Shown here piece by piece: positions 23,199 through 57,934 of a DNA stretch of 64,000 nt. Source of the stretch: Theileria orientalis strain Shintoku. Its lineage: Eukaryota > Apicomplexa > Aconoidasida > Piroplasmida > Theileriidae. The first letter of the stretch is position 1; each line of letters opens with the position of its first letter. A program made the translations under genes and the position numbers. The notes below the pieces were generated by a model. The model saw only the letters and a program-made list of their open reading frames with translations. It was not told the origin of the DNA and did not search any database. The DNA lies in assembly GCF_000740895.1 (NCBI RefSeq), contig NC_025262.1, forward strand, positions 1,852,001 to 1,916,000, in the 5' to 3' direction.

Positions 23199-23789
23199 TT
23201 ATATTCCTCCTTTCAGTCGTCGATTTAACGCCCAATTAACGTCCTCTTGAGTAACATTTTTTCTAGGTTTACTAGCTGTTTTAGAAGGATCCTTAGCAAG
23301 ATGACTACCTTCAATCCACGGCTTACCCTTAGATTCTCTCTTGAACACTTTTTTGGTATTATTAGGCAGGTGAATTGTAACCTCTTTTTTCTTATTACCC
23401 TTCCCATTCAGAACTACTTTACTGGCATACTCACTAACATTAGTAGTGCTCCAGACAACAGTATCACCTGTTTTTACCGATTTAAAACCGTAGGTATCTT
23501 TGGCGGTATAAGTCACTATCTTGTTATCTTTTTTATAGTTGAATTCGTTAGTTTCAGCTGTAGCCTTAAGGCTAAGTTCAACGCCAGTTTTAGTACCTGA
23601 ACCAGCACCTGCTCCGGTAGTTGTACCACCAGATGTGGGTGTACCGCTAGCTTGTTGGCCTTCATTTGTACCAGCTCCAGAACCTGGACTAGAACTGGCT
23701 GATAAATCAGCGGATTTCACAGGAAACCATTTATCATACGATATTGAATATAGAAACACAAAAAATAAAAATTTGACATAAAGCCTCAT
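23199..23789 (-). CDS. Secreted FAINT (DUF529) domain protein, short
   Basis: Single exon, 196 residues. A signal peptide (MRLYVKFLFFVFLYSISYDK) is followed by a Gly/Ser/Thr-rich linker (SPGSGAGTNEGQQASGTPTS) and one FAINT domain, from about GVELSLKATA to GKPWIE (residues 70-160). The tail KDPSKTASKPRKNVTQEDVN...RRLKGGI is unique. FAINT domains are a Theileria/Babesia module in secreted proteins, many of which reach the host cell; the biochemical role is unknown. The linker and domain are nearly identical to the gene at 56768-57934, whereas the signal peptide and C-terminus differ. A stranded second FAINT domain follows downstream (23041-23147), so this is probably a truncated member. Confidence 0.88.
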   Translation of the reverse strand: MRLYVKFLFFVFLYSISYDKWFPVKSADLSASSSPGSGAGTNEGQQASGTPTSGGTTTGAGAGSGTKTGVELSLKATAETNEFNYKKDNKIVTYTAKDTYGFKSVKTGDTVVWSTTNVSEYASKVVLNGKGNKKKEVTIHLPNNTKKVFKRESKGKPWIEGSHLAKDPSKTASKPRKNVTQEDVNWALNRRLKGGI

Positions 23790-39737: not shown

Positions 39738-39936
39738 CCATCTATCGGCAGTGACCGGCCAGGTTTATCGTGGTCGGGAACCGTGATGTTACGCTTCACT
39801 TACGCTAACTAGGTAGTCGAACTCTGTACTCTCACCCATCCTAACCTCCCAGATCTATGCTTATACAATACTCATTTCTCACCCGTCACACCCACCCTCA
39901 CCACACCCTCACCACACCCTAACCACCCTCACTTAA
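39738..39936. other. Convergent spacer with C-rich (minus-strand G-rich) tract
   Basis: Spacer between the 3' ends of V-ATPase H and the giant modular gene. CCC runs at 39891, 39895, 39906, 39917 and 39926 give five GGG runs on the minus strand. They lie just after the stop codon of the giant gene, within a possible 3' UTR. The motif fits a G-quadruplex consensus. Confidence 0.6.
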
Positions 39937-42900
39937 TCATAGCGCCACCGTCATCCCCGTCACCATCGTCACCAACTTCCAGCCGCTGCCGCCGGCCGCG
40001 CCGAACACGCCCCCGCCCACCAAGTACGCCATTATCGACTCCTCCTGGCAGTTACTATCCGTTTCCATTATCAACGTTTTCTCCGTTTTTGGACCGTACT
40101 CGATGCCCAACGACTTGCGTATCTCGTAGGCCCGTCGTTCTATGAGCTCGCGGAGGTCGATCTCGAGCCCGGGGTAGTTGCGAGGGTAGGCAGGTATGCC
40201 GAGCACCGTTTTTCCCAGTTTGTTTTCTATTTCCCGGGCGTCTCGGGCAAACGCGGCGTCGCGCGCGCACGTTTGTTCGCGGTTTTCGCGCTGTTCCTGG
40301 GAGGTTTGGTCCGTGGTGTGGGTGTGGGTGTTGTTACCGTTATGGGCGGGTTGGGGGCCACCCGTAGCAGCCGCTCCAGGGGGCGGGCACTCGGCGCAGT
40401 TTTCGCTCTGACCGGCGGCCCCGTTCTGGCCGGACTGGGCGGGCTGGGTGCTCGGGGCGTCCTTGCAGCTGTCCCCCGTCCCTGTGCCCGTCCCTGTATT
40501 CGTGTGGCCCGTACTCGTGCCCGTTTGCGCCTGGGCATCGGCACCCGTACCCGTACCAGTCTGACTGGCGGTCATCCGGACCCACTTGAGCCCGGTGGTA
40601 GGCGGCTTCGAGGGCGCCGGGTCGTCCGTGCTAGTGGAGCCGGTGGGTGAGCCGTTCGGGCTGACACTCGCTCCGCCCCCGTTACTACCCGCACTAACCC
40701 CGTTACTGCCGTTACCACCCCCTTCCTGTGGCCCGGAGCACAACCGCCACCACTCGCTCGGCCGGCCCTTGAAGCCGAGCTCGACCACCAGGGGCCAGTT
40801 GTGCGCGCAGTCGTACATGTAGTAGTACGTACACACGGTTTGGAGTTGTTTTTCGGGTGCGTACTTGAAGCAGAACGCCTGGGTAGTGGTGGTGGTACTA
40901 GGGGCGGTGGGCTGAGCGGGGCACTGCCCATTTGACGAGGCCGCCACCGGTACACCCGGACCGTTCCCCTGACCCGCACCCGCACCCTCGGGACAGGGCG
41001 GCTGGGCGTACGTCACCCGGCCCAGCCTAAACCCCTCGTGCTCCGGCTTGTGCGTGTAGCGCCGGTAGCACTGCAGGTCCTGGGTGGTGACGCGCACCCG
41101 AACCGGGTCGGGCGGGTAGTTGTGGGTTAGGTAGGTGTAGTCGTCGGTCGCCGATCCCGTTTGCCCGTTCGTACCTGAGGCGGCTTGGGGGCCGTTCGGG
41201 CCTGACGCGCTTGACGGTTGTTGCCGGCCGTTCGTACCCGCCGAGTCAGCCTGCCCGTGCTTCGGATCCAGTTTCCCGTACGCATCCTTGGTCAGGCGCA
41301 GATAAACGGGGTTCAGGAGCACGGACACCCGGAACAGCTCGGGGAGCAGCGCCGGCGTGTTGAACTTGGGCTCACCCTTCCTGCCCGTTTGTTGGCCCTT
41401 TTCGTCGCACATGCAATTCGTGGACCCGGCGCCCCCCGGGCCGTTGCCCACCCTAACCCACTGCTTGCAGTAGTCCGCCATGCACACGGGCCGGTACGCG
41501 TGTTTGTCGTAGCACAGCATCAGCGGCCGCGGGTCCTCGCCGTAGAAGAACACGTACAAATTGCCCTTACAGGTGGTGTACGACAGCTGTACTGACTGGC
41601 CGTTTTTGCCGGTTTTGCACCCGTTTTTGCCGTTTTTGCACCCGGTTTCGCCGTTACTCGTGGCCTGGCCGGTGCACAACTCGAGGCCCTCCTTTCCGGC
41701 GCCCTGTTTACTACCCTGGGTGTCGCAGGGCTGGCACTTGCCATTGTCGCCCTTTCCACCCGCCTTATCGACCCAGAGGCACAGCACCAGCCCGCCCACC
41801 TGCTCGATGTTGTTGGTGTTAACGAGATCATGTTTGAAACAGCGGTACCCCCCTGGTTGCAGGCCCGGACAGTGCACTTCCTCCACTTGGATCTGGGTGG
41901 TGGTGGGTCCGGACGGTGTTGCAGGTTCGGGCGGGGCTGAGGGTTTACCGTTGTTGTCGCACAGCTTGGCCTGATAACTGGTCTTAAGAGTAACGTGGTG
42001 CATCAACGAGTCCCTAGTGGAGAGGGGCTTGCCGGCTGTAAGGGCGTTGGTGCCTGTTGTCTTAGAGGTTTTTTCGAGTTCATCCGCTTCTTTGGCCACC
42101 TCTTTGAGTATCCTGGTTTTTACGTCGAATAACTGTTTCGCCGCCTTTTGGTTTGAACTCTTGTCGCCCGTGCCGGTATCAAAAACGTCAGTGATTAACC
42201 CGTTCTGGCCGGGCTTGTACTCGGTTGCCACGGGGCGCGTGCTCAGCACGATTTGCAGTTTCTTGCTAATCTTGAACAGTATAGAGTCGAGCTTTTGGGC
42301 CAGCTTGCCACCCGGTTTTGTGTCGGACAAATCTAGAGGGTCTTTGCCGTCGTTTTTCTTGTACAATTTGGTCTCGCGGGGCTCGGACTTCTTCGTGAGC
42401 TCAAAGTATGTATTATAGTAAAAGCACCAGTCAGGGCTCCTGAGCGCGACGAGCAGTGGGTGCTCGTGTTTAGTGTCGCCTTTGTAGTAGAACACGACGA
42501 CCTCGGGGGAAGCTTTGTGTTTGTTGTCGGATTTGTTGACATCGGAGGCTGAAATGCACTTGTATCCATTGCTGTTCGTCCCGTTCAACTTGATACACGT
42601 GTTACTGTTATTGTTACCGTTTTCGCCCTTATTACGGCCGTCATAGTGTATGTTGCCCAGGCGGAACCCGTCCCCTTTACCCGTTATTCCGGCGTGCGTG
42701 TGCGTGTACTTGTTGTAACAGAACGAACCTATTGCGGGTTGTGATGTCACCCTGATCCATATTTTACACCCGTTAAATTTATGTACACAGTAGCATCGGC
42801 AAAATTTCCAATATTTTGATGTTGAATTGGGTACCTGTTTTACGTCGACCGGGTTCAGGAAGTCGCTCACCCCGACCAGCGCCTTTATAAGCGGGCACTT

Positions 42901-45900
42901 GTCGCACGTCCCGGTCGGTGGTGTCTGGGCGCACCCGCATTTCGCCGCGTCCGCCGCTTGTACCTCGGTACACTTGGCCCACTTTTGCTCGTTGTACGCT
43001 GCCATGTCCTTGGCCCGGTACGCCCACCCGTTGTAACACACCAGGAGCGGTCGCGGGTCACTGCAGTAGAAATAAACGCATACCTTGTTCCCGTTATCGG
43101 GGTGGTGGTACTTTACAGAGCCGTTTTGGGCACCGGCCGCATCACCGTTCAGCGTCACCCGTTTGTACTTTCCTCGTTCACCAGTGGGTATCAAGAACTT
43201 CAGTCCGGCTATCAGGTTAATTTGGCACAGGGGCGGCTTAAACGACCCGTTGAGCTTCACCAGCTTGTCCAGGTTGTGCGTCATAGCCTTGAAACCGTAT
43301 TGCTTAACGCACGCACAGGGACCTGTTCCCGCACCCGTTTCTGTCTCGTCCTTAACCGTAATCTCTCTGCCGGTGAGCCGGTTCACGTCGTTGTCGTTGC
43401 CCGGCGATTGCAAACCTGCCTTACCGACGGCCTTTTTGATCTTGTCATCCCCGTACGTGCCACCTATGCACTTCCCGGCCTTCTGTTCCAGCAATATCAC
43501 GGCGGCGTTGAGCAACTGGAAATCGGTTTTCTCGTCCAGTTTTACGGGCGTTTTTGACCCGTTTACCAAACGCCACTGGTACGCGTACCCCGTACTTCCG
43601 GCACCGCCGCCACCCCCTGTACTGGCGCTCGAGAGCACGTAGTACCCGTACTTTTTGTCCGCACTGCCGGTCACCGCCTCGCCGTTCTTTACTGGGCCGT
43701 CCGTGTTCAGCAGCACGATCAGCTGCGGCAACGAGTAACATTTGTCGCTCGTCGAGTAGTAAACGACCACCGTGTTCCACCCACACGTGGTGACCAGGTT
43801 TTTGTGGTTCCCGTTGCCGTTGGGTCCACCGGTGCCTTTAGCGACCTCGATCTTGATCGTGCCATTACCCGTTGTCCCCGCAGCGGCCGGGCTGGCGGAA
43901 CAGGTCTGGCCGTTGCTCAGGGCGGGCCCGTCACACTGGCCGTTGCTCAGGGCGGTCGGGGTCACCCCGTCCTGCGTGATCTCCTTCCCGCAATAGGTTA
44001 AACAGCCTATTCGAAACCCGTTCTTCGTCCTGTGCACGACCTTCACGTAGGCCTTTTGAGCGTCGTCGCCCGTGGGTTTTTTCTCGGTCAGGCACACCCT
44101 GTTGTTGCCCACCGACGTGTCCAAATCCTTCCCCCCGTTGCTCTCGGGGAGGCCGTACCCGGTGCCCGCGCCTGAACTGCCGCCCGAACCGGCCTTGCTG
44201 GCCTTCTCGGGGTCCAGGTCTATACGGTTCAGGCACTCGTTTACCCTGTCCAGTTCGTTGGCGAGTTCTTTGCAGCACGGGCACTCCGGGCCGCACTCGG
44301 CGCCGTCTCCACCCGGTCCATGGGTGCCACAACTAGTGCCAGTGTCGCCTGCCCCTACGCCCGGACAGCACGCGCACCTACACTCGCCTGCCGTTTTGCA
44401 CAGCCCGGGGACGCACACCCACCTCGTAAAGTACTGGTCGCGGTCGCACGGCCTGTAAAACTGCCCGTTATACCGTAGCATCAGCGGGACCGTGTCGGTG
44501 TCCACAGTAGCAGGTTGAACGGCACCATTAGTACCGGCGTAAAAATAGACGTACACGTCGCCCATGCAGCTGTTGTACGTGAGCGGGGTGATGGGTTGGC
44601 CGGGAGAACATGTTGAGGGCGCTCCTGTTACGGCGGAGCAGGTTCCGGCAGTGGGTTCGAGTGGGCAGGTGGCAGCGCTCTGACTGGACAGACACCCACT
44701 GGGACCCACACCCTTGGAGCCGGCCTGGCCCTCCGCCGAATACAGCGGGATCTCCACCACCTTGTCGCCGCCCCCGTTTGCGCCCGCATCGCCGTTCTTG
44801 CCGGGGAGCGTAAAGGCCAGCCCGGCCACCTGGTAGTGGACGGATTTTAGCGCCGTTGACAGGTCGTGCTTGAAGCACTTGTACCCCGATTTAGTTAGTG
44901 CGTCACACCCGGAGCACTCGCAGACCGTGACCTTAAGCTGCCCGTTGTTATCGACGCCGTTTTTAATGGGCGAGAACCCGTTTGAGCTGCTAGTCCCCGG
45001 CTTGGCGTCCTTGCCCACGAGATCGTAACTGTCGCTCGCCTTGTTTTTCTCAAGCTGTATCCGCACCACCTTTTTGAGGCAATAGCGTATCTGGTCCAAG
45101 TAACGGGTGAGGCACCCCGGCTTCGCTAGGTTGGTTTTAGAGCCATTGTCCACTTTCGCCCACTCCAACTTTCCGCCAGACCCGTTGCGCGTTTTTAGGC
45201 GGTAGTACTCCGTCGTGGTGGCGCCGTTCTGCAGCCCGTTAGCCGCCACCTTGGCAAACTGCAGCTCCACCAGCAGCGGATCGCAGTACCCTTTGTCCTC
45301 GTTGTAGTAGTACACGGCGACGGATGTGAGCGGGGCCCACTTATGGGTGGAGGTGTGGTCGCCGTTGCCCTTGTCTGAGCCGTTTCCGTAGTACGTGATG
45401 GAGCCCTGTGGGTCGCCGCTGGACCCGCTGCTAGGACAGTACACGACGTCGCCCAGTCTAAACCCGTTGTTCGTGTTCGCGCTATTGGACCCGTTTCCCG
45501 TGCCGGCCGGCCTGTGGGTGAGCTTCCTGTAGCACCCCGAACTGGCGGTTGTACCATTAACAGGGCAGCACTTGACCTGGACCTGTATTTTGGAGCCCCG
45601 GAACTGGTGGACCTCGTACGTGCACTTCCCGGTGGTTTGGCTACTGGTTGGGGACTGGCAGGTGGCAGTAGCGCCCGCTGCACCTGGTTCACCGGGTTGG
45701 CACGTGGTTTGGCCGGCCTCCCCCCCTGCCGTACCCGGGTGCTGGAACAGGTCGACGGTGTTCAGGAACCCGACCGTCGTCGTGAGCGCCTTAAAAAGCG
45801 CCTTGCATTTCTCGCAGTTCGCACCTGCGCCCTCTGGGCCCCCGTTTGAGCACTCGCACGCGCCCTTGTCACCCAGGTCCACCTTGACCCACGCGCTGAA

Positions 45901-48093
45901 ATACCCGTTCTTATCTTTGGGGCGGTACCAGCATCCCCGGTAGCAGAGTAGTAGTGGCCTAGGGTCGCCCGTGCCTGCTGACCCGCTGGTCCGGCCGCCC
46001 GTACTCGGGACGCCCTTGTAAAACACCACGTACAGCTTGGAGCATATCTGGGCGTTTTGGGTCTTGGAGCAGGTGTGGCCGGTCGTAGAGGTAGTGCAGG
46101 CGGTCGTGCAGGCGGCCGACCCGCCCGAACCCGCGCCCTTGGTGTAGTACAGGTACTGGAGGTATTGGGGGTCCGTTTTCTCTGCGCTGTTGTAAAGGCG
46201 GAGCTCGGCGTACTTCGTTTGGCCGCCACCGCCACCGCCTCCGCCACCCCGCTCGTTGTTCTCCTTGGTGGGCAACAGCAGGCGCAGGCCCGCCGAGCAG
46301 CCCTGGCCCAGTTTGGTATTGACGGCCTGGGAAAAATCGTGCTGTATTACGCAGTACCCGTATTTGGCGAAACATTTGGCGAGGCACGCGCAGACCGAGC
46401 CCGGGTCGCCGTTATCCGTGGGTGCCTCGGTCACCGTTATCTTGGTGCCGTTCCCGTTATCGTTCCCGTTGCCCAGTTTCAGGCGGTTGACTCGTGTTCC
46501 GCGTCCGTTGGGTTGCAACCCCGAAATGGCGCTTTGGATCTGGGAGTCGCCGTACCCGTCCGCAACCCCGTTATGGGCGTTCTTGCAGTTTTTCTCCAGC
46601 AGTATAACAAGCGAGTCAATTATGTCAAACTGGAGCCGTTTGAGCAAGAGGGTGGCCAGGGTTTTGGAGCCGTTCTGCTGGCCGTTCTGGACGCTGGGTT
46701 GGGACCCGTTGACCGTCGCTTTCAGCAGTTTGGTCAGGTTCTGGCCTGTCATTTTTTGTAGCTTTTCGGTGAGGTCCCCGTTCGCGCCGTCCGTCGCGCC
46801 GTTGTTCAACGCCTGTTTTAGCAGTTGTTTTAGCGTTTCGTGCCCGTTATCGCCTGCACCGCTAGAACTGGTGTGCAAACCGATGTCGTCGAGCAGGTTC
46901 TTCAGCACACAGTCACCGTTCGTGCGTCCATCAGCGCCATTCCCACAGGGGAGCTTTACCCAGTAGTACTTATCGGGGCCGTTACCGTTTTTCCGGGCGC
47001 CGTTGGTACTACGGAGGTGCGCGTAGTACTCGGGGTTAGTACTGGCGCCGTTCGTGCTGTTCGCACCGTTCCTGTGCAGTTCCAGGAGCAGCGGGACGTC
47101 CTGGTTGCACGGGGAAGTGGTGGCGGACGGGGGTTCGGCCGGGCACGTACCCTCGCCGGTAGCTGGGGAGCAGGCAGTGGCGCCCGGTTTACACGCGGTA
47201 CCCTCGCTCCCACTAGTACTGGCGGCCGGGCACGCACCTCCACCCGTGCTGGCACCCGCTCCGTTACGCTTAGCTTTGCACCCGAAGTATACGCTTACGC
47301 ACTTGTAGGTCTGGCCCTGTATTTCGGGGAGCTCCTGGGTCTGGGCCTGGGTGCCGTTACCGCCCATGAGCGTCTGGCACCGGTATATTATACAAGCGGG
47401 TTTGCCGGCGTTGTTCCCGTTGCTGTTGCCCCCGTTGCTATTAGTTGGCGCGTGTTTATATCGCGTGAACCCGGCGCCCAGTTTCGGTTCCCCGTTCGCG
47501 CTGGTGCTGGTGTCATCGCCGTTCTTGGTGACCTGGATCTTCCCGCAGTTGTACTTGCAGTTGGTGCCGCCCTCACCGTTGCCCGCACCCGTTGGCCTCT
47601 TCATGATATCGTACGTCAATAACCCGGGTAGAGAATCGTTTTCCTGTAGCAGCGCGCACAGTATCGACTGTTCGTTGTATTCGCACAGGTCCTCTATCTT
47701 TTTGGACGGGCATTGCGTTTTGTCCGTTTCAAAACAGGACATCGGGTAGTACCTGTTCGTGACGCCGTTACTGCGATCATCACCGTTCTTGAATTTAAAT
47801 ACTAGCACCAGCGGCTTTTTGACGGGGTCGTGCTGGTTGTAGTACACGTCCACGCACTCGAGGCAGAGGCACGGATTGCTTATTGAGAGATACTCCCCCT
47901 GTTTTATCTTTCGCGACCCGTTGGATCCCGTCGAGCATTTGAAAACATATATACAACCTCTCCTGGGTGGTTTTAGCGTGTGCTTGCACAGTTTGAACAA
48001 GTTGCAACTGCTGTATGGTTCTTCCTTTACGCAAACTTGGATCCAACCTCTGATATAAAGGACATGTGTCGTGCCCAAACAAATGACCGGCAT
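39937..48093 (-). CDS. Giant GC-rich, Cys-rich modular protein (2718 residues)
   Basis: Single exon of 8.2 kb, much richer in G+C than its AT-rich flanks. At least four tandem units of about 450-540 residues recur. Unit landmarks: (a) GYRCFKHDL-type at about 582, 1071, 1601, 2083; (b) LYVFFYGEDPRPLMLCYDKH-type with 'YRP.D...Y...W' after it; (c) a helical 'LF.....LNPVDL' segment; (d) GFRLGRVTYAQ-type at about 877, 1362, 1809, 2354; (e) VVVFYYKGDTKHEHPLLVAL-type. Segments between landmarks are packed with Asn-Gly dipeptides and Gly/Thr/Ala low complexity. Cys pairs (e.g. CRCACCPG, CPCCKEL) are frequent. The C-terminus YLVGGGVFGAAGGSGWKLV is hydrophobic, like a membrane anchor. The N-terminus (MPVICLGTTHVLYIRGWIQV) is only weakly hydrophobic, so export is unproven. 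It resembles the 707-residue protein at 13588-15711. The function is unknown. Long frames on the other strands here are GC shadows. Confidence 0.82.
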   Translation of the reverse strand: MPVICLGTTHVLYIRGWIQVCVKEEPYSSCNLFKLCKHTLKPPRRGCIYVFKCSTGSNGSRKIKQGEYLSISNPCLCLECVDVYYNQHDPVKKPLVLVFKFKNGDDRSNGVTNRYYPMSCFETDKTQCPSKKIEDLCEYNEQSILCALLQENDSLPGLLTYDIMKRPTGAGNGEGGTNCKYNCGKIQVTKNGDDTSTSANGEPKLGAGFTRYKHAPTNSNGGNSNGNNAGKPACIIYRCQTLMGGNGTQAQTQELPEIQGQTYKCVSVYFGCKAKRNGAGASTGGGACPAASTSGSEGTACKPGATACSPATGEGTCPAEPPSATTSPCNQDVPLLLELHRNGANSTNGASTNPEYYAHLRSTNGARKNGNGPDKYYWVKLPCGNGADGRTNGDCVLKNLLDDIGLHTSSSGAGDNGHETLKQLLKQALNNGATDGANGDLTEKLQKMTGQNLTKLLKATVNGSQPSVQNGQQNGSKTLATLLLKRLQFDIIDSLVILLEKNCKNAHNGVADGYGDSQIQSAISGLQPNGRGTRVNRLKLGNGNDNGNGTKITVTEAPTDNGDPGSVCACLAKCFAKYGYCVIQHDFSQAVNTKLGQGCSAGLRLLLPTKENNERGGGGGGGGGQTKYAELRLYNSAEKTDPQYLQYLYYTKGAGSGGSAACTTACTTSTTGHTCSKTQNAQICSKLYVVFYKGVPSTGGRTSGSAGTGDPRPLLLCYRGCWYRPKDKNGYFSAWVKVDLGDKGACECSNGGPEGAGANCEKCKALFKALTTTVGFLNTVDLFQHPGTAGGEAGQTTCQPGEPGAAGATATCQSPTSSQTTGKCTYEVHQFRGSKIQVQVKCCPVNGTTASSGCYRKLTHRPAGTGNGSNSANTNNGFRLGDVVYCPSSGSSGDPQGSITYYGNGSDKGNGDHTSTHKWAPLTSVAVYYYNEDKGYCDPLLVELQFAKVAANGLQNGATTTEYYRLKTRNGSGGKLEWAKVDNGSKTNLAKPGCLTRYLDQIRYCLKKVVRIQLEKNKASDSYDLVGKDAKPGTSSSNGFSPIKNGVDNNGQLKVTVCECSGCDALTKSGYKCFKHDLSTALKSVHYQVAGLAFTLPGKNGDAGANGGGDKVVEIPLYSAEGQAGSKGVGPSGCLSSQSAATCPLEPTAGTCSAVTGAPSTCSPGQPITPLTYNSCMGDVYVYFYAGTNGAVQPATVDTDTVPLMLRYNGQFYRPCDRDQYFTRWVCVPGLCKTAGECRCACCPGVGAGDTGTSCGTHGPGGDGAECGPECPCCKELANELDRVNECLNRIDLDPEKASKAGSGGSSGAGTGYGLPESNGGKDLDTSVGNNRVCLTEKKPTGDDAQKAYVKVVHRTKNGFRIGCLTYCGKEITQDGVTPTALSNGQCDGPALSNGQTCSASPAAAGTTGNGTIKIEVAKGTGGPNGNGNHKNLVTTCGWNTVVVYYSTSDKCYSLPQLIVLLNTDGPVKNGEAVTGSADKKYGYYVLSSASTGGGGGAGSTGYAYQWRLVNGSKTPVKLDEKTDFQLLNAAVILLEQKAGKCIGGTYGDDKIKKAVGKAGLQSPGNDNDVNRLTGREITVKDETETGAGTGPCACVKQYGFKAMTHNLDKLVKLNGSFKPPLCQINLIAGLKFLIPTGERGKYKRVTLNGDAAGAQNGSVKYHHPDNGNKVCVYFYCSDPRPLLVCYNGWAYRAKDMAAYNEQKWAKCTEVQAADAAKCGCAQTPPTGTCDKCPLIKALVGVSDFLNPVDVKQVPNSTSKYWKFCRCYCVHKFNGCKIWIRVTSQPAIGSFCYNKYTHTHAGITGKGDGFRLGNIHYDGRNKGENGNNNSNTCIKLNGTNSNGYKCISASDVNKSDNKHKASPEVVVFYYKGDTKHEHPLLVALRSPDWCFYYNTYFELTKKSEPRETKLYKKNDGKDPLDLSDTKPGGKLAQKLDSILFKISKKLQIVLSTRPVATEYKPGQNGLITDVFDTGTGDKSSNQKAAKQLFDVKTRILKEVAKEADELEKTSKTTGTNALTAGKPLSTRDSLMHHVTLKTSYQAKLCDNNGKPSAPPEPATPSGPTTTQIQVEEVHCPGLQPGGYRCFKHDLVNTNNIEQVGGLVLCLWVDKAGGKGDNGKCQPCDTQGSKQGAGKEGLELCTGQATSNGETGCKNGKNGCKTGKNGQSVQLSYTTCKGNLYVFFYGEDPRPLMLCYDKHAYRPVCMADYCKQWVRVGNGPGGAGSTNCMCDEKGQQTGRKGEPKFNTPALLPELFRVSVLLNPVYLRLTKDAYGKLDPKHGQADSAGTNGRQQPSSASGPNGPQAASGTNGQTGSATDDYTYLTHNYPPDPVRVRVTTQDLQCYRRYTHKPEHEGFRLGRVTYAQPPCPEGAGAGQGNGPGVPVAASSNGQCPAQPTAPSTTTTTQAFCFKYAPEKQLQTVCTYYYMYDCAHNWPLVVELGFKGRPSEWWRLCSGPQEGGGNGSNGVSAGSNGGGASVSPNGSPTGSTSTDDPAPSKPPTTGLKWVRMTASQTGTGTGADAQAQTGTSTGHTNTGTGTGTGDSCKDAPSTQPAQSGQNGAAGQSENCAECPPPGAAATGGPQPAHNGNNTHTHTTDQTSQEQRENREQTCARDAAFARDAREIENKLGKTVLGIPAYPRNYPGLEIDLRELIERRAYEIRKSLGIEYGPKTEKTLIMETDSNCQEESIMAYLVGGGVFGAAGGSGWKLVTMVTGMTVAL

Positions 48094-50202
48094 GTTGTAT
48101 TACGGTTGTCGTACTGTTGTTATACGACGGCTGGCTGTTATTTGGCGGTTATTTGCCTGTTGTTGTAGTTGGTGGTTGTTTGCGGTTATAGTTGTTTTGT
48201 GTTGATTGGATGGCAACAGTAGATGTATTTTAATGTTTATGTAGTCTAATTTACAATTGCTATATTGCTTATCTGTTTGTTTTTTCAGATGTGTGTGTTT
48301 TATTTTTTTGAAAATTAAAGTTCTTTTGCAATGGGACCGACGAGCTTTAGTTCGTCGGTCCGGCGCAAACACCTTTTTTTAATCACCTCAGTTCAACACA
48401 TTTCTTAAAATAAATGCTATATTAATTATGTGTTATCGATAATAGTTAGCAGGGAATTGTATTATCTATTAACTTATGTAACGCAACGATCTATAAAATC
48501 ACATTTTATCTACATTTTAACACACGTTTACTTTAACGTTTGTATATTTAAAGAAATACTTTTTATATCTAAATTAATTTATTAGATATATATTTAGGCT
48601 GCACACAAATTAACACATTTCGTTAATATCGATGTTTTAGACACTAATTAAAGGACTTATATCAAATTTAACTTCATTAAATACTTTATTAAACTGCATT
48701 ATCAAAATATATTATTCTGAAAAAATGTGTAAAAATGAACAGGATGGGGAAATTCAACTTGATAACTCGAAGTTTAACCACGTTTGATCCAAATCTCAAT
48801 AAATAACTGACGGCGTTAACGATCAATCGGAAACTTTATATAGACAGTGCAAACAGTACTTGCAGATGCCACAAACCTACTATTCAGGTCCAACAAATAA
48901 CGACAAAAAATTACATGCACCGAAATAGCAGCTTTAATGGATCAAATACACTTCAAAAATTACATATATGCCTTCATAAATTTTTTTAATTGATAATTTG
49001 TTAAAATCTCTCGATTGTGTAAAGAGTCTAAAAATTTATGTACGTTTTAATATACCCAACAACAAATTCGTAATTACGTAAAAATTTGAACCAATTTTAA
49101 AAAATTTTTTCAGTCAAAATTAAAAACATTTTTTAAAATTTAGAATAAACCCAATTGTCGAACTTTCGTGTGGCGAAAATTTGATGAATTCAATTTGCTA
49201 TATTACACACCTTAGAATATATCAATCGATTTAATTGACTATTCTTTATAACTTGACAATATTCGTGTCTATTAATACCTAAGAAACACTGGATCTGAAT
49301 GAAAAAAATAAATTTTATAAAGAAAAGTGTTCATAATATGTTTATTGACCCACACTTACAAAATTTAACAAAATTTAAAACAAAAGGAGATACATGTAAA
49401 AACACATTTGTATAATTTAAAATAACACAATTTATAAAACTAGTTTAATACATGTTAATGATTAACAAATCATCGTAATATATGTAAACTTGTTACAGTG
49501 GCTCGGAGAGTATGGTGGGCTAGTAGGGTATAAGACAACGGATAGGGCGGTCAAAATCCGAAAATGAACTGTATAACAATATAAAATAAAAAATGATATA
49601 GACAACAATTTAGGGCGGAACATTCCAAAATTGGGATTCCACTCAGATATGGGCAAAAACACATTTAGGGCCAATTAAAACGACAAATTAGACAGTAGAT
49701 AATTTTATTCGATGATAAAATTGTTTTTAAATTACACACTAATTAAAAGTTTTAACAATTAGACAGTTTAAAACAAATCGCATCCACTGTCTGGCAGGCC
49801 CATTAACGACAATCATATATTATCATAAAAATTGAAATACTGGTGAATATAAACCTAAAACATTATGCATATAACCAATTTATTTAAAAATTACTGAGTA
49901 TTTACAAAATACAATTAAATATTTCACATTTTATTTAGTTAACCCCCATCCCTGAGCGTTTTGAAGGGAAGGGTTTAAGCTTTAAATCAAATGGAAGTTA
50001 ACATCCATAATACACGAAAATGGCTGTTAACAAATGTACAATACATATATCAATGGAATCTTGTGGAATTCAACCATTAACTAATTATTTCAAGCAATAG
50101 TTAAAGTGATACTAGCATCAAAGCTAGTATTATCAATACTATATAATGGTATTGACAATATTGGCGAAAGTATCACGAAACTAATTTAATCTTTAAGCTA
50201 AA
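48094..50202. other. 2.1-kb AT-rich divergent intergenic region
   Basis: It lies between the giant gene (-) and the repeat-containing FAINT gene (+) and must hold both promoters. The first 100 bases upstream of the giant gene are CAA/AAC-rich on its sense strand. A perfect hairpin stands at 48334-48361. The rest is AT-rich without genes. A 70-codon minus frame at 49462-49674 has no support. Confidence 0.6.
48334..48361. other. Perfect GC-rich hairpin upstream of the giant gene
   Basis: GGACCGACGA and TCGTCGGTCC form a 10-bp perfect stem around the 8-base loop GCTTTAGT, in an otherwise AT-rich region about 240 bases before the giant gene's ATG. It could be a cruciform, an RNA hairpin in the 5' UTR or a protein-binding palindrome. 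I cannot decide between these. Confidence 0.75.
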
Positions 50203-53200
50203 ATGAACTCAAGTTCAATATATTATATATTAGTACACTTAGTACTACTAGTTAGAGTAAATGTGGTACTAAGTCATCGCAACCTCAAATCCAGAGAGCC
50301 TCAACACACTACAACGAGTGCCAATGTAAATAATTCAAATAATTCATTGAGTGGACGTGAAACTGTATCAGGTACCTGGCATAGAATACCAACTGAGGAG
50401 TCCTCAGACCACAGAGATATACCACCCAGAAAATCACCAAAAAGACTTCAAGTCACCTCAAATCAAGAACAACGTTATAGATTTAAACGAATGGATAATA
50501 CAGAAAGAAGATATACAACACCTACGAGAATATCATCGCAGCCAGTTGAAGAGAGGCCGTTGCCTAAACCAACTGGAAATACATTGATAGTTTTAGACAT
50601 GGATAAAACACATGACGTGTTTGGATACCAAATATCACGCGAGAGAGATAAAGTCATTTATAGAGCTGATCCATCTTTTTTGTTTCGCCAAGTTAAAAGG
50701 GGGAATGATATACTGTGGAGTTCAAAAAATGACGGCCACTTTCCTTATAAGGTAGTATCCAAACAGAAGTACGGAGATGACGACATAAAAGTATACTTTC
50801 CAAGGCCTCCGAACTTTGAAGAAACTGAAAACGTTGATGTTGTGAGACCACAGAGACCAGCATACGATATGTCAAACGACCCAAATTTCATGTACACACC
50901 CTTTACTCACGAAGAAAGTGTGGGAATACCTCACGAACACTCGCAACCATGGGTTTCCACTCACCGGCCAGAGTACACACACATACCTATGGCCACAGAA
51001 CCCACTCACTTTCAAACCCAGCCAGATTTCATCCAATATCAAATGACACCTAGCTATACACGATTTCCAACGGTACTTGATCAGACTCCCACTCACTTGG
51101 ACCCTGAGTTTACTGCGGTCCCATTGACACCTGATCCAACTCACTCTAAAGTTTCAGGTGACACTAGAGCATTTGATGCTACAGAGCCACATGGTTCATT
51201 TACACACGGTTCAGATCCACGATATCAGGGGAGAGGTCCACCAAGACCTCCTGATCAGCAGTTTGTACATCAAATGACCCCCGAGTATTCTCAAATTCCA
51301 ATGGGACTTGATCAGACTCCCACTCACTTGGACCCTGAGTTTACTGCGGTCCCATTGACTCCTGATCCAACTCACTCTAAAGTTTCAGGTGACACTAGAG
51401 CATTTGATGCTACAGAGCCACATGGATCATTTACACACGGTTCAGATCCACGACATCATGGGAGAGGTTTATCAAGACCTGATCAGCAGTTTGTACATCA
51501 AATGACCCCCGAGTATTCTCAAATTCCAATGGGACTTGATCAGACTCCCACTCACTTGGACCCTGAGTTTACTGCGGTCCCATTGACTCCTGATCCAACT
51601 CACTCTAAAGTTTCAGGTGACACTAGAGCATTTGATGCTACAGAGCCACATGGATCATTTACACACGGTTCAGATCCACGACATCATGGGAGAGGTTTAT
51701 CAAGACCTGATCAGCAGTTTGTACATCAAATGACCCCCGAGTATTCTCAAATTCCAATGGGACTTGATCAGACTCCCACTCACTTGGACCCTGAGTTTAC
51801 TGCGGTCCCATTGACACCTGATCCAACTCACTCTAAAGTTTCAGGTGACACTAGAGCATTTGATGCTACAGAGCCACATGGATCATTTACACACGGTTCA
51901 GATCCACGACATCATGGGAGAGGTTTATCAAGACCTGATCAGCAGTTTGTACATCAAATGACCCCCGAGTATTCTCAAATTCCAATGGGACTTGATCAGA
52001 CTCCCACTCACTTGGACCCTGAGTTTACTGCGGTCCCATTGACTCCTGATCCAACTCACTCTAAAGTTTCAGGTGACACTAGAGCATTTGATGCTACAGA
52101 GCCACATGGATCATTTACACACGGTTCAGATCCACGACATCATGGGAGAGGTTTATCAAGACCTGATCAGCAGTTTGTACATCAAATGACCCCCGAGTAT
52201 TCTCAAATTCCAATGGGACTTGATCAGACTCCCACTCACTTGGACCCTGAGTTTACTGCGGTCCCATTGACACCTGATCCAACTCACTCTAAAGTTTCAG
52301 GTGACACTAGAGCATTTGATGCTACAGAGCCACATGGATCATTTACACACGGTTCAGATCCACGACATCATGGGAGAGGTTTATCAAGACCTGATCAGCA
52401 GTTTGTACATCAAATGACCCCCGAGTATTCTCAAATTCCAATGGGACTTGATCAGACTCCCACTCACTTGGACCCTGAGTTTACTGCGGTCCCATTGACT
52501 CCTGATCCAACTCACTCTAAAGTTTCAGGTGACACTAGAGCATTTGATGCTACAGAGCCACATGGATCATTTACACACGGTTCAGATCCACGACATCATG
52601 GGAGAGGTTTATCAAGACCTGATCAGCAGTTTGTACATCAAATGACCCCCGAGTATTCTCAAATTCCAATGGGACTTGATCAGACTCCCACTCACTTGGA
52701 CCCTGAGTTTACTGCGGTCCCATTGACTCCTGATCCAACTCACTCTAAAGTTTCAGGTGACACTAGAGCATTTGATGCTACAGAGCCACATGGATCATTT
52801 ACACACGGTTCAGATCCACGACATCATGGGAGAGGTTTATCAAGACCTGATCAGCAGTTTGTACATCAAATGACCCCCGAGTATTCTCAAATTCCAATGG
52901 GACTTGATCAGACTCCCACTCACTTGGACCCTGAGTTTACTGCGGTCCCATTGACACCTGATCCAACTCACTCTAAAGTTTCAGGTGACACTAGAGCATT
53001 TGATGCTACAGAGCCACATGGATCATTTACACACGGTTCAGATCCACGACATCATGGGAGAGGTTTATCAAGACCTGATCAGCAGTTTGTACATCAAATG
53101 ACCCCCGAGTATTCTCAAATTCCAATGGGACTTGATCAGACTCCCACTCACTTGGACCCTGAGTTTACTGCGGTCCCATTGACTCCTGATCCAACTCACT

Positions 53201-56148
53201 CTAAAGTTTCAGGTGACACTAGAGCATTTGATGCTACAGAGCCACATGGATCATTTACACACGGTTCAGATCCACGACATCATGGGAGAGGTCCACCAAG
53301 ACCTCCTGATCAGCAGTTTGGACAAGAATTTCAATCTAGAAGTACACATCCTATAGAGCGACTTAGAGAACGTCACAGAATGATTGAAGAAACAGAAAAA
53401 TATAGAGATCACCCAGGTAGACGATTAAGACATTCTGATAGAACACTAATGGCAGGCAGCCAATATCCAATGCCTCCACAGTCCCACCCTATACCAATGG
53501 CACAACCAGTTTCTCAACCGAGTACAACTCCTTTCTATTCAACGCCCTCATCTAGTGCACCAAGTCAGACATTTTATCAGCCTACACCAGTACCGACCTC
53601 TACACCAGCAGCCAAGCAGGTTCCAGACCATATACAGGAGAAACCTGGTGAACCTTCTTCAATCCAACCTGAATCAACAACTAAGGAGGCTGAAAGACAT
53701 GTCCCTGACGATGTAGGCAAAGATCGATTCGGTTCCCTACCGGAAGGAGATTTAAGAGTAACTGATGCACCGCATCCAGATTCCAAGATAATGGTCGATG
53801 CAAGCACTAGTACGGTCAACTACACAGATGCCTCAACACAGTTCCCAGAATGGATGTCAGTTCCAGTACGCGCAATTCAAACAAGTGAAAAGGCAACAAG
53901 TACTTTCGATATTCCAAAAGTCGAACAACCTTCTCCTGAGAGAATCACTTCAAGAGTTCGATCCAGAGATTCAACACGAAAAGAAGAAATTTTACTAGAA
54001 CCAACTCCCGTAGATTCAACACTCAGAGAAGAACTCATAATAAAGCCATCAGTGCCTGAACCGCCCAAAAGACCTGAGCCAACACCTTGTGAAGAACCGA
54101 TTGTAGAGGAAATAAGAACTGACGCACATACTGGTGAAATTGGCTCCGACGAATTTATTTTTATACAAGACATAGGACCCGATGAAGAAGCAGACTTACC
54201 AACTAGACAGATGCCAACCAGGCAAGAACCAATTCGTCAGACCACTGTTGGACGTGAAACAGCACAGGAAACAGTCAGACAAGAAGTAATTAGCGAGCAC
54301 GCACCCAGAGTTCCACCCGAAAGTGTTCATCGTCCAAGTGAACCAGCACCCAGTCAGTTACCTGAGCGCGATGAATTTGTATTTGAGGAAAGACCAAGAG
54401 AACCAACTCCAAGAGAACCACAATCAAGAGAACCACAAACAAGCGTGGATACAGATGTTAACCAACCAGAATCTACGAGAGAGAGTCAACCCAGACCTTC
54501 AACATCTGGAGAAGGAATCAGAAGAACAACCACGTCAGGGGATCGAATCAATATCACGCAGAGCGAAAACGAGATAAGAATAAACACAACTGACCCTGAA
54601 AACGGAAGCTACTCAATAGATATTGACCCGAAAAAGCACGACAAGGTAGTGTTAACATTTGCAAACAATTCAACAGTCTTCGTTCTCGACGGAGCCAACC
54701 ACACTCTGGGTCTGAACCAGGGAGTTGAGCCAGGAAATATTGCATCAGAGAGACTAACGATGCAGAGAGTTTCCCCAGAACCTGTCGGTGGACTCATAGG
54801 TGGCCCAACACCTGTTGACACAGACACCATCCCGGTAACTAAGGACGCAACACCAGACCAAAGAGATCCTGAAGGACGCCCAACTGAACGAAGACCCGAA
54901 AAGTTTACGATTTCTCCAGACGATCTTGTACATCCACCGCCCCCGTACACCACCCCAGGGTTTCCACCCCCTTCATACTTGCCAGAACAACGCGTTATTC
55001 CCGATGATAGGGCCCTTAGAAGATTGACGACACTGTTGGAGTTAACTACAATTAGTAACTTAGCTCAGTTGAGCAGGCCAGCAAGCTACACACCAACGAC
55101 TGATGTCCGTGTTGACCATAACCCACATGATCCTCCGTCTGAAACCACATCACTCAGAGTCCCGGATTCAGACGGCGAGGAAATAACGGCAGCAGCACCA
55201 GAATCTACAACTCCGGCACCAGTTGATCCATTCAGTACACCTTCTGACGAAGGCGAATCCATTACCGGAGACCTTGAGGATTCTTCTGAACAACAACCTC
55301 AACCAAGACCTAGGGCAGACGCAAACGGTAACGGAAGTGGAAGTGGAATTGGAAGATCATCCTCTCCAATTACTATTGCCTTGGAAGAAGACGATAATGA
55401 ATCTGGTAGTGATTTTACCCTCGACCTAAACGCTACTGATACAGACGAAAATATGTGTGAAACCAGGGAAGACTCAACAACAAATGAGTCAACATATACT
55501 TTCAAATCGACTACAAGGTGCACAGAGGTTAGAATTGATCATATTACAATCTGGAAGAAGGGTGATCAAAACTTTAACAAGCCTGGAAATGTAAAGTATA
55601 ACAAATCTTCCAATGTAATTACCATAAGTGACGGCACTACTGGTATTCTCTACAAATTGGTTAATGGTACTTGGCAATTCGATTCTACTGTAACTTATAG
55701 TCAACAGACAAGTACTCCGGCTAAATCCCCTAAGGTTGATCAAAAAAGTGCCGTCACTAAGAATCCTGTTCAACTAAACATAAAGAAAAAGAACTCCACG
55801 GAGGTGTATAATTATGTTAAGGAGAATAAAACTGGAACATACACGGCAAAAGAGGGATTCGGATTCAACAGTGTTGTTTCCTCTGGGTCTCTTTGTTGTC
55901 AATCCAATATTAACATATGGGATGCAAGAGTCAAAGACCAATATGGCAACAAAGTAGTTGTTGACGGTCTTGGTAATAAAAAGAAAACTCTTACCATTCA
56001 CTTTGATGATGATGACAAAAAGATTACATTTAAAAAGGATGACAAGGAATGGATGCAGCACGAAAGTGTTAAAAAAGAAAAGGTTATCGATCCGTCTACA
56101 GATTTATCGGCAACAACAGGCGGAGGCCAATTGGTAACCGTTTCATAA
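50203..56148 (+). CDS. Large secreted FAINT-domain protein with 76-residue tandem repeats (SVSP-like)
   Basis: Single exon, 1981 residues. Signal peptide about 1-24 (MNSSSIYYILVHLVLLVRVN). A FAINT-like domain spans about 126-205 (NTLIVLDMDKTHDVFGYQIS...). Pro/His/Thr-rich linker. Then nine almost identical 76-residue repeats (about 358-1041) beginning MTPEYSQIPMGLDQTPTHLD, preceded by one diverged copy. A Pro/Glu/Arg-rich disordered part follows, with a FAINT-like segment near 1450-1510 (RINTTDPENGSYSIDIDPKK). Two FAINT domains stand at the C-terminus: about 1735-1830 (CTEVRIDHITIWKKGDQNFN) and about 1853-1950 (GTYTAKEGFGFNSVV...GLGNKKKTLTIHF). Signal peptide, Pro-rich low complexity and FAINT domains match Theileria SVSP-type proteins, which are secreted into the host cell. 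The role of the repeats is unknown. Confidence 0.9.
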   Translation: MNSSSIYYILVHLVLLVRVNVVLSHRNLKSREPQHTTTSANVNNSNNSLSGRETVSGTWHRIPTEESSDHRDIPPRKSPKRLQVTSNQEQRYRFKRMDNTERRYTTPTRISSQPVEERPLPKPTGNTLIVLDMDKTHDVFGYQISRERDKVIYRADPSFLFRQVKRGNDILWSSKNDGHFPYKVVSKQKYGDDDIKVYFPRPPNFEETENVDVVRPQRPAYDMSNDPNFMYTPFTHEESVGIPHEHSQPWVSTHRPEYTHIPMATEPTHFQTQPDFIQYQMTPSYTRFPTVLDQTPTHLDPEFTAVPLTPDPTHSKVSGDTRAFDATEPHGSFTHGSDPRYQGRGPPRPPDQQFVHQMTPEYSQIPMGLDQTPTHLDPEFTAVPLTPDPTHSKVSGDTRAFDATEPHGSFTHGSDPRHHGRGLSRPDQQFVHQMTPEYSQIPMGLDQTPTHLDPEFTAVPLTPDPTHSKVSGDTRAFDATEPHGSFTHGSDPRHHGRGLSRPDQQFVHQMTPEYSQIPMGLDQTPTHLDPEFTAVPLTPDPTHSKVSGDTRAFDATEPHGSFTHGSDPRHHGRGLSRPDQQFVHQMTPEYSQIPMGLDQTPTHLDPEFTAVPLTPDPTHSKVSGDTRAFDATEPHGSFTHGSDPRHHGRGLSRPDQQFVHQMTPEYSQIPMGLDQTPTHLDPEFTAVPLTPDPTHSKVSGDTRAFDATEPHGSFTHGSDPRHHGRGLSRPDQQFVHQMTPEYSQIPMGLDQTPTHLDPEFTAVPLTPDPTHSKVSGDTRAFDATEPHGSFTHGSDPRHHGRGLSRPDQQFVHQMTPEYSQIPMGLDQTPTHLDPEFTAVPLTPDPTHSKVSGDTRAFDATEPHGSFTHGSDPRHHGRGLSRPDQQFVHQMTPEYSQIPMGLDQTPTHLDPEFTAVPLTPDPTHSKVSGDTRAFDATEPHGSFTHGSDPRHHGRGLSRPDQQFVHQMTPEYSQIPMGLDQTPTHLDPEFTAVPLTPDPTHSKVSGDTRAFDATEPHGSFTHGSDPRHHGRGPPRPPDQQFGQEFQSRSTHPIERLRERHRMIEETEKYRDHPGRRLRHSDRTLMAGSQYPMPPQSHPIPMAQPVSQPSTTPFYSTPSSSAPSQTFYQPTPVPTSTPAAKQVPDHIQEKPGEPSSIQPESTTKEAERHVPDDVGKDRFGSLPEGDLRVTDAPHPDSKIMVDASTSTVNYTDASTQFPEWMSVPVRAIQTSEKATSTFDIPKVEQPSPERITSRVRSRDSTRKEEILLEPTPVDSTLREELIIKPSVPEPPKRPEPTPCEEPIVEEIRTDAHTGEIGSDEFIFIQDIGPDEEADLPTRQMPTRQEPIRQTTVGRETAQETVRQEVISEHAPRVPPESVHRPSEPAPSQLPERDEFVFEERPREPTPREPQSREPQTSVDTDVNQPESTRESQPRPSTSGEGIRRTTTSGDRINITQSENEIRINTTDPENGSYSIDIDPKKHDKVVLTFANNSTVFVLDGANHTLGLNQGVEPGNIASERLTMQRVSPEPVGGLIGGPTPVDTDTIPVTKDATPDQRDPEGRPTERRPEKFTISPDDLVHPPPPYTTPGFPPPSYLPEQRVIPDDRALRRLTTLLELTTISNLAQLSRPASYTPTTDVRVDHNPHDPPSETTSLRVPDSDGEEITAAAPESTTPAPVDPFSTPSDEGESITGDLEDSSEQQPQPRPRADANGNGSGSGIGRSSSPITIALEEDDNESGSDFTLDLNATDTDENMCETREDSTTNESTYTFKSTTRCTEVRIDHITIWKKGDQNFNKPGNVKYNKSSNVITISDGTTGILYKLVNGTWQFDSTVTYSQQTSTPAKSPKVDQKSAVTKNPVQLNIKKKNSTEVYNYVKENKTGTYTAKEGFGFNSVVSSGSLCCQSNINIWDARVKDQYGNKVVVDGLGNKKKTLTIHFDDDDKKITFKKDDKEWMQHESVKKEKVIDPSTDLSATTGGGQLVTVS
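51274..53326 (+). repeat. 228-bp coding tandem repeat, nine near-identical copies
   Basis: Copies start at 51274 and every 228 bases to 53098. They are nearly identical, with a synonymous T/A difference (TTGACTCC versus TTGACACC) distinguishing copies in the order T,T,A,T,A,T,T,A,T. A more diverged copy precedes at about 51043. The last copy ends with the PPRPPDQQF variant also seen before the first copy. Near identity implies recent expansion or homogenisation, and copy number probably varies between isolates. Confidence 0.95.
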
Positions 56149-56767: not shown

Positions 56768-57934
56768 ATGAATATATTTAGAGCGGTCAATACTGTTTTG
56801 TATCCACTCTTTATATTCTTGTTGTTCAGTGGACGGAATCTTTTGGAATCCACTGATACATCAGCCGGTTCTACTCCAGGTTCTGGAGCTGGTACAAATG
56901 AAGGCCAACAAGCTAGCGCTACACCCACATCTGGTGGTACAACTCCCGGAACAGATGCTGGTTCAGGTACTAAAACTGGTGTTGAACTTAGTCTTAAGGC
57001 TACAGCTTCTACTGACCAGTTTGATCACAATAAAAATAATAAAATAGTCACTTATACGGCTAAAGATACCTATGGTTTCAAATCGGTTAAAACAGGTGAT
57101 ACTGTTGTCTGGAGCACTACTAATGCCAGTGAGTATGCCAGTAAAGTAGTTCTGAATGGCAAGGGTAATAAGAAAAAAGAGGTTACAATTCACCTGCCTA
57201 ATGGTACAAAAAAGGTGTTTAAGAGAGAAAATAAGGGTAAGCCATGGATTGAACTTAGTCAGGATAATAAAGAAGGTACTTCTACAACTGGAGGTGATGG
57301 ATCCGAGTTTGAACTTAATATTAAATCCAGTGATGACAAATCTGATCCTGATAAATATGATGTTACAACTTCCTTTTCTAAATCCAAAATTTACTCAATA
57401 AAATCAGGTAAAAAATGCACATTGATTAAGGTTGAAGATAAAGAGGTTTGGAAATATGATTCTAGCAAAAATTTTGGCTATCCCAAAAAAATAAACTACA
57501 ATGAGGAACAAAATAAAATTATCATTACCCTCGATGATGGATACTTAGAATACAATAAAAAAAGTGACAAATGGGAGATAAATGAGATTGCTAGTACCAA
57601 AGAGAAATCAAGTACAAATTCCACATCTGGCACTGGCACGGGAACAGGAGGTGGCACTGGAACTGGCACAGGAACTGGAACTGGCACGGGAACAGATGGG
57701 AGTGGTACTCCTGCAAGCAGAGGTGGCACAGGAACACCTGGCAGTGGTACCCCTGAAAGCAGAGATGGCACCTGTACAGGTGGTGGAGGCACACATACAG
57801 GCCGAGGCAGCACTCATACTGGAGGTGGCAATGGAGGTGGTACATCGCCACCCTCTAATGAAAGTAGTGGAACACATACAGGTGGATCTGGTCGAGGCGG
57901 TGGTACTGATCGAACAAGTGGTGGAAGGCATTAA
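56768..57934 (+). CDS. Secreted two-FAINT-domain protein with Gly/Thr-rich tail
   Basis: Single exon, 388 residues. Signal peptide MNIFRAVNTVLYPLFIFLLF. A linker (TPGSGAGTNEGQQASATPTS) and the first FAINT domain (GVELSLKATAS...KGKPWIE, about 75-170) are nearly identical to the gene at 23199-23789. The second FAINT domain (about 185-270) contains FELNIKSSDDKSDPDKYDVT and KKCTLIKVEDKEVWKYDSSK. The rest is Gly/Thr/Ser repeat (GTGTGGGTGTGTGTGTGTGT) with GGGTHTGRGSTHTGGGN motifs. After the TAA the same frame continues with similar composition through another TAA to 58064, so the C-terminus was probably longer once. The signal peptide is unrelated to that of the 23-kb paralogue. Confidence 0.9.
   Translation: MNIFRAVNTVLYPLFIFLLFSGRNLLESTDTSAGSTPGSGAGTNEGQQASATPTSGGTTPGTDAGSGTKTGVELSLKATASTDQFDHNKNNKIVTYTAKDTYGFKSVKTGDTVVWSTTNASEYASKVVLNGKGNKKKEVTIHLPNGTKKVFKRENKGKPWIELSQDNKEGTSTTGGDGSEFELNIKSSDDKSDPDKYDVTTSFSKSKIYSIKSGKKCTLIKVEDKEVWKYDSSKNFGYPKKINYNEEQNKIIITLDDGYLEYNKKSDKWEINEIASTKEKSSTNSTSGTGTGTGGGTGTGTGTGTGTGTDGSGTPASRGGTGTPGSGTPESRDGTCTGGGGTHTGRGSTHTGGGNGGGTSPPSNESSGTHTGGSGRGGGTDRTSGGRH

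Follow-up and report, generated by a model that had tools for sequence, protein, structure and literature searches.

The most important property of the giant gene described here, and one absent from the first-pass annotation of the same DNA, is the mosaic relationship between its genomic copies. The gene (copy A) lies in a window of 64,000 nucleotides from Theileria orientalis strain Shintoku. Alignments show every copy compared to be a mosaic: copies dispersed over at least three contigs have in-frame tracts of short to kilobase length in common, while A, B and C remain uniform over roughly their first 150 codons and all five copies in their 5' box. We propose, with a probability of roughly 0.55, that copy A is a complete member of a small family of giant Cys-rich proteins which would be host-facing and varied by ectopic gene conversion. 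Taken together, the sequences would describe a family of variants, probably facing the host, in which segmental gene conversion creates the diversity.

The first-pass annotation had placed an uninterrupted frame of 2718 codons at 39937-48093, and these coordinates proved exact. The single frame runs on the minus strand from ATG to TGA (8.2 kb, 2718 aa), and the frame itself together with its paralogues and homologues supports a single-exon gene. Over this interval the three plus-strand frames contain 42, 61 and 106 stops and the remaining two minus frames 86 and 109, and no competing open stretch is longer than 262 codons. The base composition is set off from both flanks, as had been claimed, with a GC per kb of 0.51-0.65 at 40-48 kb; the flanking values are 0.43 and 0.38 in one direction and 0.31 and 0.27 in the other. 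GC at codon positions 1, 2 and 3 is 0.54, 0.50 and 0.75, although high GC3 is not wholly unique to copy A, being 0.56 and 0.62 in two of the seven other window ORFs measured. The description of the product as Cys-rich also stands (4.7% Cys versus 1.0-1.8% in nine AT-rich paralogue fragments), and Gly makes up 12.9% of residues. Asn-Gly dipeptides number 84 in copy A versus 22 expected from composition, 76 of the 84 being encoded as AACGGN (39937-48093, minus strand), and the nine AT-rich fragments have 3-8 each. Nine of the ten four-run G motifs in the window fall within copy A or its 3' flank (39895-47326), a concentration which is in part expected from the high GC.

At least five family copies were identified in T. 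orientalis Shintoku, one on contig C2, two on C3 and two on C4, together with a fragment on C1. Copy A (C3:1891937-1900093) is complete, copy B (C3:1802876-1809442) ends early, copy C (C2:1216756-1224828) is full length without the end of the tail, copy D (C4:1650402 to about 1660960) is annotated as a protein of 3546 residues, copy E (C4:1766515 to about 1772040) is shortened, and fragment F lies at C1:1229552. These counts are lower bounds because the genome search, which listed 21 matches, scored only 16 of its 77 candidates; copy D escaped it and came to light in later comparisons. AT-rich homologues in the genome search have 32-44% identity, and AT-rich distant relatives (L010-L018) are found at contig ends as well as inside contigs. 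All eight database homologues are T. orientalis proteins, hypothetical or uncharacterized, four of them annotated as strain Shintoku, and as the search scored the 7978 candidates sharing most words the eight are not a census. Of two further protein searches, the one with L014 as query returned nothing and the one with the AT-rich alignment retrieved no sequence beyond the alignment's own first row, so that neither gave a hit in another species, but both were insensitive and missed known genomic relatives. The GC-rich family is not described in the available excerpts of PMC10730637, PMC9610513, PMC5921998, PMC9323827, PMC6630957, PMC4066756, PMC4413850, PMC3505731 and PMC11237503, from which these papers are cited throughout, and the 2012 Shintoku genome paper may mention it. 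Thirteen Shintoku hypothetical proteins with one C-terminal membrane helix each have been reported to cluster within but not between genotypes (PMC9323827).

Identity between the copies changes abruptly along the gene. In fifty-codon blocks, A and B are 100% identical in 20 of the 21 blocks of codons 1-1050 and 99.3% identical in the remaining one, their identity is 56-75% at codons 1101-1300, and it is again 100% at 1351-1550, while A and C are 100% identical for 150 codons and 48-99% identical thereafter. At 1384 variable sites among 2094 three-way aligned codons (A, B, C), the longest shared runs were 517 (AB), 39 (AC) and 13 (BC) versus maxima of 52, 7 and 5 in 1000 permutations, and pattern switches numbered 130 versus a permutation minimum of 445; this test assumes exchangeable sites, and strong rate differences would also cluster identity, but hardly to 100% over 3 kb. 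A single-event origin, namely plain recent duplication of A and B, was considered and set aside, as it leaves the inner low-identity tracts unexplained. Misassembly or a recent duplication could account for some of the A-B identity.

A T. orientalis protein record with locus tag MACL (P0005) equals copy E exactly over residues 31-150. Of its 50 windows, copy E is best or tied in 15, and elsewhere A, B, C or D is often better, with 13 of the 50 windows having another Shintoku copy at 90% or more while E is at 60% or less. From this pattern we infer that P0005 represents the copy E locus of a different isolate, which probably belongs to the same genotype; very high nucleotide identity has been described between the Robertson and Shintoku Ikeda isolates (PMC5921998). 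Three AT-rich subtelomeric relatives, L011, L012 and L013 (ends of C2, C4 and C1), share 200-base blocks of 70-100% identity, and the closest pair changes from block to block. These relatives are thus mosaic too, and exchange may be common to dispersed families of this genome in general.

The dN/dS is 0.46 for A-C, A-B and B-C and 0.42-0.47 in three sub-stretches, and on these six comparisons (0.42-0.47) the copies are under coding constraint. GC3 is 0.74-0.75 in A, B and C, 0.75 and 0.63 in pieces of E and 0.69 in fragment F, and the AT-rich relatives have 0.26-0.30 (internal L010, L014 and L016) and 0.35-0.47 (six subtelomeric). This gradient, in which internal relatives are lowest, subtelomeric relatives intermediate and the GC-rich copies highest, fits a recombination-linked bias. 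GC-biased conversion as the sole cause of the high GC is doubtful, since the mosaic subtelomeric relatives reach a GC3 of only 0.35-0.47. Compared with three MACK- or MACJ-tagged proteins, A, C and D have mean identities of 34-40% in best ungapped 30-residue windows, a measure with a floor near 20-25%. The tags presumably denote the Goon Nure and Fish Creek isolates, of other genotypes, and if so 34-40% would be low beside a genome ANI of about 82% (PMC9323827).

Both ends of the gene carry elements common to other copies. A 24-base hairpin box with a 6-base inverted repeat, GTCGTA/TACGAC, lies 13 bases before the ATG (48107-48130, minus strand), and its sequence, CCGTCGTATAACAACAGTACGACA, is carried exactly by A, B, C, D and E (5/5). 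At up to 3 mismatches the 9.01-Mb genome contains just five sites, each before a family start, and none for the reversed box used as control. The box alone is predicted to fold as RNA into a 7-pair hairpin (-7.9 kcal/mol, z -4.46), the z for a 63-base stretch around it is only -1.45 with 16 of 200 shuffles as good, and covariation is uninformative for the hairpin because the box is invariant among copies. Conceivably, the box would act as an expression or recombination anchor. An A/C-rich 5' leader without ATG (48094-48222, minus strand) is common to B (to about 48197) and C (to about 48222); since B and C thus share with A only about 104 and 129 bases upstream of the ATG, whole neighbourhoods are not duplicated. 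Beyond the stop codon, a 3' flank at 39834-39936 (minus strand), including a G-run motif at 39895-39928, is common to copy D with 94% identity over 103 bases.

The protein termini were assessed by eye and by hydropathy in 19-residue windows, with the usual cut-off of 1.4. The N-terminus of copy A reaches at most 1.22, and neither approach makes a signal peptide evident. Two codons upstream of the ATG stands an in-frame TAA. The lack of a splice AG between the two, and of any ATG in the 190-base leaders of copies A, B and C, speaks against a signal-peptide exon further upstream; such an exon might still join inside the first codons, where an AG about 45 bases after the ATG is a possible acceptor. 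The start of the AT-rich L011 looks signal-like by eye (MKNIYTFVSYLLFRFFIQ...), with hydropathy below 1.4 too, and the A, D and E proteins begin Met-x-x-Ile where this start ends (KTICLE), by eye as if the signal had been lost. At the other terminus, a hydrophobic tail (residues 2688-2718; 39940-40032, minus strand) is common to copy D and similar to the tail of another protein, P0009. No window in the copy A tail exceeds 1.4, whereas the P0009 tail reaches 1.62, and the tails of the AT-rich L010, L014 and L016 reach 2.01, 2.02 and 1.44.

At least four composite repeat units with a period of about 450-540 residues had been recognised in the first pass, and this architecture was recovered as four units, 450-545 residues apart and each two-lobed. 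The GFRLG landmark occurs at residues 877, 1359, 1809 and 2354 of copy A (spacing 482, 450 and 545). Lobe 1 extends roughly from a KC..H motif through CMGDVYVYFYG.DPRPLLLCYNG to KWV.V, and lobe 2 from FLNPVDL through CY.KYTH, GFRLG and YYY..D..PLLVEL to YYKL...W. Lobe HMMs were made with rows of AT-rich paralogues only (7 for lobe 1, 6 for lobe 2), cut from an alignment that had included the copy A protein. The lobe 1 HMM matches all four copy A units, one of them in two pieces, with E of 3e-10 to 2e-29, and the lobe 2 HMM all four plus an N-terminal partial (E 8e-7 to 5e-45). The controls were one reversed sequence and 50 shuffles, among which the lowest E was 4e-3 for a domain and 2e-3 for a whole sequence. 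On the minus strand, these matches place the partial lobe 2 at residues 69-123 (47725-47889; E 8e-7), unit 1, with lobe 1 and lobe 2, at 483-1034 (44992-46647), unit 2 at 995-1467 (43693-45111), unit 3 at 1522-1953 (42235-43530) and unit 4 at 2064-2442 (40768-41904). Lobe 1 and lobe 2 resemble each other weakly, with an hhalign probability of 44% versus 2.6% for the reversed control. A structure predicted with moderate confidence for the unit 3 stretch 1556-1965 (11 sequences) is of mixed sheet and helix, and PDB structure comparison of the modelled unit gave no convincing match. Pfam gave no significant match to copy A (up to E 1 only Myosin_N, E 0.53), and PDB sequence searches gave none for the whole protein up to E 0.1 or for the unit profile up to E 1. 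The earlier suggestion of an undescribed surface or adhesion-type family is borne out in part: a large modular family without a name is upheld by the absence of Pfam and PDB matches and by eight of eight unnamed homologues, but the surface or adhesion role is not, with no signal peptide evident and a tail below the cut-off.

A position next to secreted or surface genes, also claimed earlier, holds on one side, where two large ORFs beyond the 5' end of copy A have FAINT domains. The frame at 50203-56148 (plus strand, 1981 aa) has a signal-like start, a C-terminal FAINT domain and about ten near-identical 228-base tandem repeats (98% match, 51065-53324). The frame at 56768-57934 (plus strand) also begins signal-like, contains two FAINT stretches and ends in a tail rich in Gly and Thr, and a further FAINT-domain frame lies at 23199-23789 (minus strand).

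With FAINT genes adjoining copy A, the units might themselves be strongly diverged FAINT domains and the protein an expanded FAINT-family secreted effector. Lobe 2 is collinear with extended FAINT domains across 124 columns, and the hhalign probability in local mode (1.9-3.8%) is slightly above that of reversed controls (0.5-1.3%), but these values are far below significance and in global mode forward was no better than reversed. As the FAINT profile (PF04385) has no match to copy A at E<=1, and a local FAINT HMM reaches only E 0.21 for copy A and 0.083 for the best paralogue piece, we consider this origin unlikely. A chance or non-coding GC-rich frame has the unusual composition and nothing more in its favour, and its probability is negligible in view of the GC pattern by codon position, the dN/dS of 0.46 between copies and the AT-rich homologues at 32-44% identity. 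The at least five genomic copies and the records from other isolates likewise set aside the chance or chimeric frame without homologues for which the first-pass annotation had allowed.

The mosaic itself is open to two other explanations. Duplicated structural proteins might exchange tracts neutrally as dispersed repeats recombine, i.e. concerted evolution without antigenic purpose. The exchange of tracts among AT-rich subtelomeric relatives, a dN/dS below 1 and the discussion of gene conversion for several apicomplexan families (PMC4413850) agree with this, but the copies are not homogenised, tracts of 48-60% standing beside tracts of 100%, and similarity to the MACK/MACJ proteins is low; we regard neutral exchange as possible though on balance doubtful. 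Alternatively, part of the mosaic might be an assembly artefact of near-identical repeats, as the reference was made with Sanger sequencing (PMC9323827) and 3 kb of near-perfect A-B identity is a misassembly-prone stretch. However, flanks differ between loci, the A-C and B-C runs are each beyond permutation, the P0005 record carries a different mosaic, and relatives sit on megabase contigs of other assemblies, all of which makes such an artefact very improbable.

In the preferred reading of a host-facing family varied by conversion, ectopic (segmental) gene conversion would produce the tracts common to dispersed copies, and it would be retained because the host-facing protein thereby varies. 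Since A and D both keep the 5' box and the tail, they could be the expressed forms, and copy C without its tail, the shortened B and E and fragment F could serve as sequence donors. With less confidence, we suggest that the protein may reach the membrane or be exported without a classical signal peptide, as described for VESA1, and that the cysteine-rich two-lobe units may form a variable ectodomain. Biased repair in repeated conversion may have raised GC. Against this reading stand the tail hydropathy below 1.4, the lack of an evident signal peptide, the mosaicism of the AT-rich subtelomeric relatives and the average dN/dS below 1, and about five copies make a small donor pool when B. bovis has 119 ves1 genes (PMC3505731). 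A bolder and rather unlikely version is that T. orientalis has its own antigenic-variation machine, separate from Babesia ves, in which one or two complete expressed genes (A, D) would be rewritten piecewise from shortened donors on other chromosomes, the invariant 5' hairpin box would mark each copy, and conversion-biased repair would have driven the family to 75% GC3; if true, even isolates that share a genotype would have different sets of variants. A small family of giant proteins trading tracts would be a concrete, testable candidate for T. orientalis persistence in cattle. Theileria would then have converged independently on segmental gene conversion, and if GC increases as copies exchange tracts, GC-biased conversion would become testable in an apicomplexan.

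Among known Theileria systems, the SVSP and FAINT families are likewise Theileria-specific and FAINT genes adjoin copy A, but SVSP proteins combine a signal peptide with a FAINT domain, whereas copy A has neither a FAINT match nor an evident signal peptide. The AT-rich relatives at contig ends could, by position alone, belong to the SfiI-subtelomeric family of T. parva and T. annulata, between whose arrays recombination has been suggested (PMC4413850); the GC-rich copies, in contrast, are chromosome-internal. Tpr/Tar resembles the present family as a dispersed, fast-changing Theileria family of variable proteins, but the defining feature of Tpr is a conserved C-terminal region in which five membrane helices are typically predicted (PMC10730637), and by hydropathy no 19-residue window exceeds 1.4 in the C-terminal half of copy A. 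According to the available text of PMC4413850, the large families of Theileria are believed to have no members in the membranes of parasite or host; the same text calls Tar/Tpr predicted integral membrane proteins.

The closest parallel is VESA1 of B. bovis, which is also large and cysteine- and lysine-rich (PMC6630957), and whose genes are also mosaic, in ves from segmental gene conversion (PMC6630957, PMC4066756) and here as historical mosaics only. VESA1 has no evident signal peptide and a hydrophobic C-terminal tail with a transmembrane helix; by hydropathy copy A may be similar, its N-terminus reaching at most 1.22, although its own hydrophobic tail stays below 1.4. No relation in sequence or motif accompanies this likeness, with no VESA profile match up to E 1 and LYWL, the core of the conserved VESA1 motif, absent from 18 of 18 sequences checked. 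The excerpts at hand describe the ves family as absent or unrecognizable in Theileria (PMC6630957) and report no VESA1-like family detected in T. equi (PMC3505731). B. bovis has 119 ves1 genes (PMC3505731) versus about five chromosome-internal copies here, and the GC-rich family is built from repeated two-lobe units. VESA1 genes are often paired on a bidirectional promoter, while the divergent neighbour at 50203, seen for copy A only, is a FAINT gene. VESA1 is exposed on infected red cells and undergoes antigenic switching. Comparisons with Pfam, FAINT, Tpr and PDB yielded no membership, and the best reading by analogy is that the GC-rich family would work like Babesia VESA1 without belonging to it.
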